Shown: positions 12,820 through 13,363 of the stretch, piece by piece
Position numbering within the stretch: the first letter of the stretch is position 1
Layout of the letters: every line of letters starts with the position of its first letter
NCBI GenBank assembly: GCA_026692705.1
Contig: JAPLOE010000213.1
Span: forward strand, 1-64,000
DNA: 64,000 nucleotides
DNA from: Planctomycetota bacterium
GTDB taxonomy: Bacteria; Planctomycetota; UBA1135; GCA-002686595
Reading direction: 5' to 3'
Position numbers and translations under genes: made by a program
The notes under the pieces: generated by a model
Seen by the model: the letters and a program-made list of their open reading frames with translations, nothing else
Databases searched by the model: none
What the model was told of the DNA's origin: nothing

Positions 12820-12891
12820 GCGGGGGGCTCCTCGGCCCCATGACACACCACCCCCTTGCGCGCGACGAAGGGTCGATCCAGAATTCCGCCG

Positions 12892-12984
12892 TACATCCGG
12901 AGTGGCTCGCAGGATCGCGGGCCCGGCAACCTGGGAGGACAACCCAAGGTGCCCAGATGCGCCCTGCTAGGGGCGCGCGATGTG
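12892..12984 (+). ncRNA. Candidate SAM-I/SAM-IV clan-like riboswitch aptamer (four-way junction)
   Basis: Hand folding: P1 TACATC/GATGTG; P2 GGCTCGC-aggatc-GCGGGCC; P3 GGCAACCTGGG-aggacaa-CCCAAGGTGCC with AA/T internal loop; P4 GCGCCC-tgctag-GGGCGC. Possible P2-loop ATC to J3/4 GAT pseudoknot. GGCAACC...GGTGCC is the SAM-I/IV core. Confidence 0.55.
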
Positions 12985-13008
12985 GCGGGAGCCCCCGAGG
13001 CTTGCCGC
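12982..13008 (+). promoter_or_regulatory. Hairpin mutually exclusive with aptamer P1 (possible expression platform)
   Basis: GTGGC-gg-GAGCC-cccga-GGCTT-GCCGC; its 5' strand shares 12982-12984 with P1. Confidence 0.4.
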
Positions 13009-13049
13009 AACGAAGTGTCCCGCGTCGGTCGCCGAACGACCCCGCGCTC

Positions 13050-13084
13050 CGGTGGTTCCAGAATTCATACGGAGCTCACCACCG
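13050..13084 (+). promoter_or_regulatory. Stem CGGTGGT/ACCACCG flanking the SD-like GGAG and abutting the ATG of the downstream ORF
   Basis: Exact 7-bp inverted repeat 13050-13056 / 13078-13084; GGAG at 13071-13074 in the loop; ATG at 13085. Confidence 0.4.
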
Positions 13085-13363
13085 ATGAAGGCCCGTCCGC
13101 CCGGCTTCACCCGCGTCCTCGCGGCCTGCACCGACCCCGACCACCACCTCTGGCTCAACGGCAAGCTCTGGTGGATCGCGTTCACTTACCACACCACCGA
13201 CGGCCGCAAGCGCCGTCTGCGCGCCTCGCTCGGCACCCGTGACGTGCGGCTCGCGCGCCAGCGCCGCGACGAACTGCTCGACAGTTTCGAGCGCGATTTT
13301 GGCCACCGCCCGTCCCTGCGCTACGCGGCGCGAGCCGAGGGTTTCCGTGAAGACGCCGCGTAA
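13085..13363 (+). CDS. Small orphan protein resembling the N-terminal arm/SAM-like segment of tyrosine recombinases
   Basis: KLWWIAFTYHTTDGRKRRLRASLGTRDVRLARQRRDELLDSFE is integrase-N-terminus-like; no catalytic domain follows (stop after 92 aa). Confidence 0.6.
   Translation: MKARPPGFTRVLAACTDPDHHLWLNGKLWWIAFTYHTTDGRKRRLRASLGTRDVRLARQRRDELLDSFERDFGHRPSLRYAARAEGFREDAA

Follow-up and report, generated by a model that had tools for sequence, protein, structure and literature searches.

As a rule, riboswitches act directly on the genes of enzymes and transporters. Among SAM riboswitches, P5 is a standard element of the SAM-I/IV class, to which PK-2 also belongs, while the pseudoknot between the P2 loop and J3/4 is a feature of SAM-I that SAM-I/IV does not have. 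DUF6538 is a domain of the N-termini of tyrosine integrases. The SAM-I-IV variant has been listed as occurring in "Several phyla, marine" (Weinberg 2010, PMC2864571), and PK-2 has been described in SAM-IV, with SAM-I/IV containing P4 and lacking PK-1 (PMC6890682). In the window, by which we mean the entire 64,000-nt stretch of planctomycete DNA analysed here, an aptamer of a known SAM class is coupled to a single small DNA-binding-like protein that is uncharacterised and has a promoter box of its own, a linkage that extends across several phyla. We consider it probable that this locus is an OFF-type SAM-I/IV riboswitch controlling a stand-alone arm-type DNA-binding-domain protein, here termed HHLW protein, which likely regulates from the TATGACAC box. 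The main texts of the literature searched contained no report of a SAM-I/IV aptamer paired with the HHLW gene; provisionally, the unit is probably an undescribed way of relaying SAM levels to genes.

A search of Rfam by cmscan yields a full-model match to SAM-I-IV (RF01725) at 12888-13024 (+) with 39.8 bits and an E-value of 1.2e-4. This is marginally below the gathering score of 41.1 bits, and a scan of the whole window at the gathering threshold is therefore empty. The aptamer, comprising P1-P5 and PK-2, is assigned to SAM-I/IV because relatives pass the cut-off and because its helices covary. In an alignment of 83 distinct aptamer sequences, 88.5% of the cells pair, two-sided changes occur in 26 of the 32 pairs throughout P1-P5, and the covariation score amounts to 0.509, compared to 0.168 for shuffled and at most 0.136 for slid alignments; the alignment is model-fitted and thus leans towards the structure, an effect that we judge too small for the observed margin. 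The earlier note, which read a SAM-I-type four-way junction here and proposed conserved covariation in homologues as its test, is thereby borne out with respect to the SAM clan, while the class is SAM-I/IV instead of SAM-I. Likewise, the hairpin at 12982-13008, previously taken to compete with P1, is P5, a regular constituent of SAM-I/IV, and the P2-loop/J3-4 pseudoknot suggested at the time gives way to PK-2, formed by GGACA in the P3 loop (12937-12941, +) and TGTCC in the 3' flank (13016-13020, +). PK-2 complementarity is present in most leaders and carries lineage-specific changes, with a mean energy of -9.2 kcal/mol for own and -7.1 kcal/mol for foreign strands, a weaker contrast than for the anti-sequestor described below. 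The MAG of 4.95 Mb to which the window belongs contains a single copy of the aptamer, whose presumed ligand is SAM.

The aptamer is firmly linked to one gene. Within the same GTDB family, RF01725 is matched at E up to 0.1 in 24 of 81 genomes, and in the eight that pass the cut-off the aptamer precedes this gene, SAM-I (RF00162) being found in one of the 81. A small ORF with the HHLWxN..WW motif starts within ~200 nt after 22 of the 27 family aptamer loci examined, the combination that the earlier note had proposed to search for in related genomes. Scanning contigs with the protein alignment further identifies 80 loci, which are distributed over Planctomycetota, Verrucomicrobiota, Acidobacteriota, and MAGs labelled Deltaproteobacteria; the record names of a few (Akkermansia muciniphila, Klebsiella pneumoniae, Paceibacterota) are nominal, stemming from the labels of MAGs. 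With a model built from 28 aptamers, almost all of the 80 loci prove to have the RNA immediately in front of the gene, and those without a match start too close to the gene. Since the contig scan used a motif from the aptamer-linked family, we additionally screened 395 genomes of the phylum with a protein profile, blind to the riboswitch, and obtained 16 strong (E <=2.5e-19) and nine weak matches. All 16 strong homologues, eight of them at loci new to the analysis, have the aptamer upstream, as opposed to none of the nine weak matches; most weak matches are N-termini of tyrosine integrases, and those inspected belong either to this group or to GNAT proteins. An independent Rfam scan of 14 verrucomicrobial loci detects RF01725 in ten of them (E up to 3), three of which exceed the gathering score, and scores before the same gene reach 49.4 bits. 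Taken at the level of sequence, the aptamer-gene pair with its promoter motif and predicted shut-off hairpin appears to recur in at least four phyla, and we hold it as near certain that the riboswitch of the window and the conserved unit are real. One genome, which also harbours locus L093, carries a second HHLW paralogue (L215, G464:C141) with its own TATGACAC box and an aptamer-like leader.

The gene itself (13085-13363, +) encodes 92 amino acids, which alignments, the DUF6538 profile, and structure prediction describe as a stand-alone arm-type DNA-binding-like domain of predicted beta-beta-beta-alpha topology. Across 59 family sequences, 12 residues are invariant, and the core follows the motif HHLWxN..WW..T..R.R.SL.T...AR..RD. 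Closer pairs in the genus display dN/dS values of 0.24-0.31, demonstrating that the ORF is coding and under purifying selection. DUF6538 matches 53 of the 59 members at E up to 0.1, with a best E-value of 1.6e-5 that is still below the Pfam cut-off; the core of the window protein reaches 19.9 bits and misses the gathering score of 27. Outside the HHLW family, the nearest relatives are N-terminal arm-like regions of integrases, consistent with the earlier description of the ORF as resembling an integrase arm-binding domain, while a tyrosine recombinase catalytic domain is absent from the 92-aa ORF. An AlphaFold2 model (mean pLDDT 78.4) shows three strands followed by a helix. Neither a Foldseek search of two models against the PDB nor a PDB sequence search with the HHLW protein gave a significant structural match or a sequence match, respectively. 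Kinship to integrase arms suggests that the HHLW protein binds DNA, and on balance we favour a DNA-binding autoregulator; its origin by domestication of an integrase arm domain is plausible.

In some genomes, the gene neighbours connect the unit to methionine metabolism. The HHLW gene is directly followed by metK at L050, L069, L070, L071, L089 (Acidobacteriota), and L103 (Verrucomicrobiota), and by a metY-like gene and an aspartokinase-homoserine dehydrogenase at L018/L047, which represent one planctomycete. In four genomes of the window genus, the next gene belongs to the PAC2 family, and at the other loci neighbours are unrelated or on the opposite strand. Most genomes have a non-methionine gene at this position. 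Other SAM-I/IV targets in the phylum include metB/metY-like genes, named by eye from sequence. The ORF's resemblance to the N-terminal part of integrases only, together with the scarcity of methionine genes behind most family members, might point to a riboswitch left by a lost gene or to the remains of a mobile element next to part of an integrase. We give this reading next to no weight, as the same compact ORF with its invariant residues stands behind the aptamer in dozens of genomes of several phyla, is under purifying selection, and occurs in one copy in its own genome with no recombinase seen nearby. The suggestion of a mobile unit is likewise unlikely, given the single genome copy, the fact that neither an adjacent recombinase nor a phage match was seen, and the PAC2 neighbour shared by the four genus genomes.

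Several further genes were observed in these neighbourhoods. A ~240-250-aa uncharacterised protein, found in both Planctomycetota and Verrucomicrobiota and without a Pfam match in L090, is encoded after the HHLW gene at L022, L026, L074, L080, L090, L097, L107-L109, and L111-L113. MoxR-type AAA ATPases are encoded behind the HHLW gene in L084 (5226-9962 region) and, as judged by eye, directly behind a SAM-I/IV aptamer in L270 and L276. At a distance of ~3.7 kb downstream of the HHLW gene, L084 (5226-9962) and L091 (7209-9909) have a MetK-like gene in divergent orientation. Other planctomycete SAM-I/IV aptamers precede small uncharacterised proteins (L256, L257, L278, L260-L263, L265, L268, L279, L280), one of which is a cysteine-rich protein of 100 aa, and genome G181 has three aptamers within 4 kb.

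Between aptamer and gene, the leader contains the elements of a putative translational switch. A predicted sequestor hairpin (13050-13084, +), formed by CGGTGGT (13050-13056) and ACCACCG (13078-13084), abuts the ATG at 13085 and holds the SD GGAG (13071-13074) in its loop, exactly the 7-bp stem ending at the start codon that had been noticed before. A start-codon-abutting hairpin with the SD inside is predicted in the leaders of most relatives, and its stability in the window is unremarkable (z -0.8). The strand CATCCGGAG (12894-12902, +), which constitutes the 5' strand of P1 and J1/2, doubles as anti-sequestor strand: In the open aptamer it would pair with CTCCGGTG (13047-13054, +), which overlaps the 5' arm of the sequestor. 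This anti-sequestor strand, like the TATGACAC promoter box, had been overlooked in the earlier reading of the leader. The complementarity of CATCCGGAG amounts to -11.4 kcal/mol and is equalled by none of 13 foreign variants; the duplex in the window is bulged, and its z-score of -1.9 against shuffles is modest. Across the leader set, the P1-J1/2 strand of an aptamer is complementary to the sequestor 5' arm of its own leader or to a strand close by, which tracks the lineage changes of the aptamer, with mean duplex energies of -11.3 kcal/mol for own versus -7.2 kcal/mol for foreign strands, equally good pairing by foreign variants in 8.8% of cases, and a median z of -3.0 against shuffles. The common aptamer variants (CATCAGGA, CATTCCGA, CATCCGGA, CATCGGGA, CATCCAGA) all have a matching partner strand, and some leaders, e.g., L043, L044, L073, and L095, lack a clear anti-sequestor pairing. 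Moreover, a terminator scan flags intrinsic terminators in 23 of 73 leaders, nearly all of them verrucomicrobial, and most of the flagged loops carry GGAATG or CCTGAT, matching CATTCC- or CATCAGG-type aptamers.

Because the closed aptamer withholds its 5' strand from these alternative pairings, SAM binding would turn the gene OFF, and we consider this direction (SAM high, protein off) likely. An early idea, in which PK-2 frees the SD in an ON switch, was abandoned after the anti-sequestor was found. It is improbable that the switch acts in the ON direction or that its ligand is other than SAM, e.g., SAH: An OFF switch is indicated by the alternative pairing as well as by the terminators, the window aptamer retains the core of SAM-I/IV and is matched over the full length of the Rfam model, and metK, metY, and metB-like genes are found behind this aptamer class in related genomes. 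A different ligand would be in accordance with the P3 cores of L097, L103, L107, L108, L111, and L112, where GCGACC-type sequences replace GCAACC and ligand recognition is possibly altered.

Upstream of the aptamer, the promoter of the HHLW gene carries the TATGACAC box ahead of its -35 element. In the window, ATGACAC (12840-12846, +; family consensus TTATGACACR), a candidate protein-binding site, is followed after 9 nt by a -35-like TTGCGC (12856-12861, +) and, with a 17-nt spacer, by a -10-like CAGAAT (12879-12884, +), from which transcription would start near the 5' end of the aptamer; a strict sigma-70 scan of the window reports no promoter. As judged by 7-mer counts, exact ATGACAC lies upstream of the aptamer in 63 of 72 leaders (51 forward, 12 inverted) versus 6 of 1477 background windows. 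The inverted boxes are all verrucomicrobial, most of the nine exceptions are box variants differing by one or two bases, and a further eight HHLW loci all have the box. The gap between box and TTG is exactly 9 nt in 39 of the 51 forward-box loci. By comparison, the box occurs in none of 24 SAM-I/IV promoters of other genes (0 of 5 in the family, 0 of 19 in the phylum sample); L271 and L274, where an HHIW variant of the gene and the box are both present, were counted as gene-bearing. The repeat TCCAGAATTC (12877-12886 and 13057-13066), reported earlier as bracketing the leader, is indeed present; its first copy overlaps the -10-like sequence, both copies are missing from the nearest relative (G006), and it looks like coincidence.

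That the box is tolerated in either orientation suggests a protein-binding site, and autoregulation by the HHLW protein through this box would be the simplest reading. The pattern TTATGACACN{8,10}TTG has 21 matches in 20 genomes, mostly one per genome and located at the promoter of the HHLW gene; matches beyond this promoter are near the control count of 4. Exact ATGACAC within ~420 nt of metK is found in 2 of 21 genomes, near chance, which speaks against TATGACAC as a general metK operator. With the exact box at this spacing almost confined to the promoter of the HHLW gene and not general at metK, no wider regulon emerges, and both the assignment of the box to the HHLW protein and any target beyond its own operon are inferred. 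Separately, metK is preceded by a tandem CATCCNNNCATCCG in five genomes of the window genus that have the HHLW gene (L145, L146, L147, L149, L150); it is the only copy in genomes G000, G007, and G008 and is missing in G009, a genome of this genus without the gene. As CATCCNNNCATCCG is absent from other genera, its role as an operator was left unproven.

Alternatively, the riboswitch may operate as described while the HHLW protein is not a transcription regulator and has some other nucleic acid or a protein such as SAM synthetase as its target, the TATGACAC box being bound by a different regulator. The invariant HHLW-N segment, absent from the integrase domains seen, the near confinement of the box at this spacing to the gene's own promoter, and metK as direct neighbour in several genomes are compatible with such a role. 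In contrast, the closest relatives of the domain are arm-like regions of integrases, and the box is found only where the gene occurs and at none of the other SAM-I/IV loci. We regard this alternative as unlikely, albeit deserving of consideration.

In our preferred model of an OFF riboswitch controlling a DNA-binding regulator, ample SAM would close the aptamer and lock away its 5' strand. The sequestor hairpin would then hide the SD, in many Verrucomicrobia the terminator would form as well, and no protein would result. At falling SAM levels, the 5' strand of the aptamer would pair with the sequestor's 5' arm or with the terminator loop, freeing the SD and permitting synthesis of the HHLW protein, which most likely binds the TATGACAC box beside the -35 of its own promoter and regulates transcription. 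SAM supply would thereby be tied to the protein's own operon, including metK or metY/thrA in some genomes. We see an even chance that these proteins form a new family of stand-alone transcription regulators that derive from integrase arms, are made only at low SAM, and relay SAM status through a TATGACAC operator in Planctomycetota, Verrucomicrobiota, Acidobacteriota, and deltaproteobacterial lineages. If true, this would establish a two-step control in which RNA senses SAM and a protein relays it in phyla with poorly known methionine regulation, allow a function to be assigned to an unnamed protein family, and represent a compact switch with a single RNA strand acting as aptamer, anti-sequestor, and anti-terminator.

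In its architecture, the window aptamer resembles SAM-I/IV (RF01725; Weinberg 2010, PMC2864571; PMC6890682), sharing P1-P5, the four-way junction, an unbroken P2, the P3 core AACC...GGTG, and PK-2 between the P3 loop and the 3' flank, with no PK-1. It differs in scoring just below the cut-off, in controlling a small DNA-binding-like protein, and in the coupling of its 5' strand to a start-codon sequestor and, in many Verrucomicrobia, to a terminator loop. The HHLW protein shares the pattern WW..T..R.R.SL.T.....AR..RD and, as far as its model predicts, three strands and a helix with DUF6538 (PF20172) and the arm domains (PF13356) of tyrosine integrases. In contrast to these, it stands alone with ~60-110 aa, has no core-binding or catalytic domain, possesses the additional HHLW-N segment, and scores below the Pfam cut-offs. 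Similar to MetJ, SahR, and SamR, protein sensors of SAM or SAH that act on methionine genes (PMC4239095, PMC3228920), the unit would link SAM status to transcription. In contrast to these sensors, the HHLW protein belongs to an unrelated family and would only relay a signal that is sensed by the RNA.
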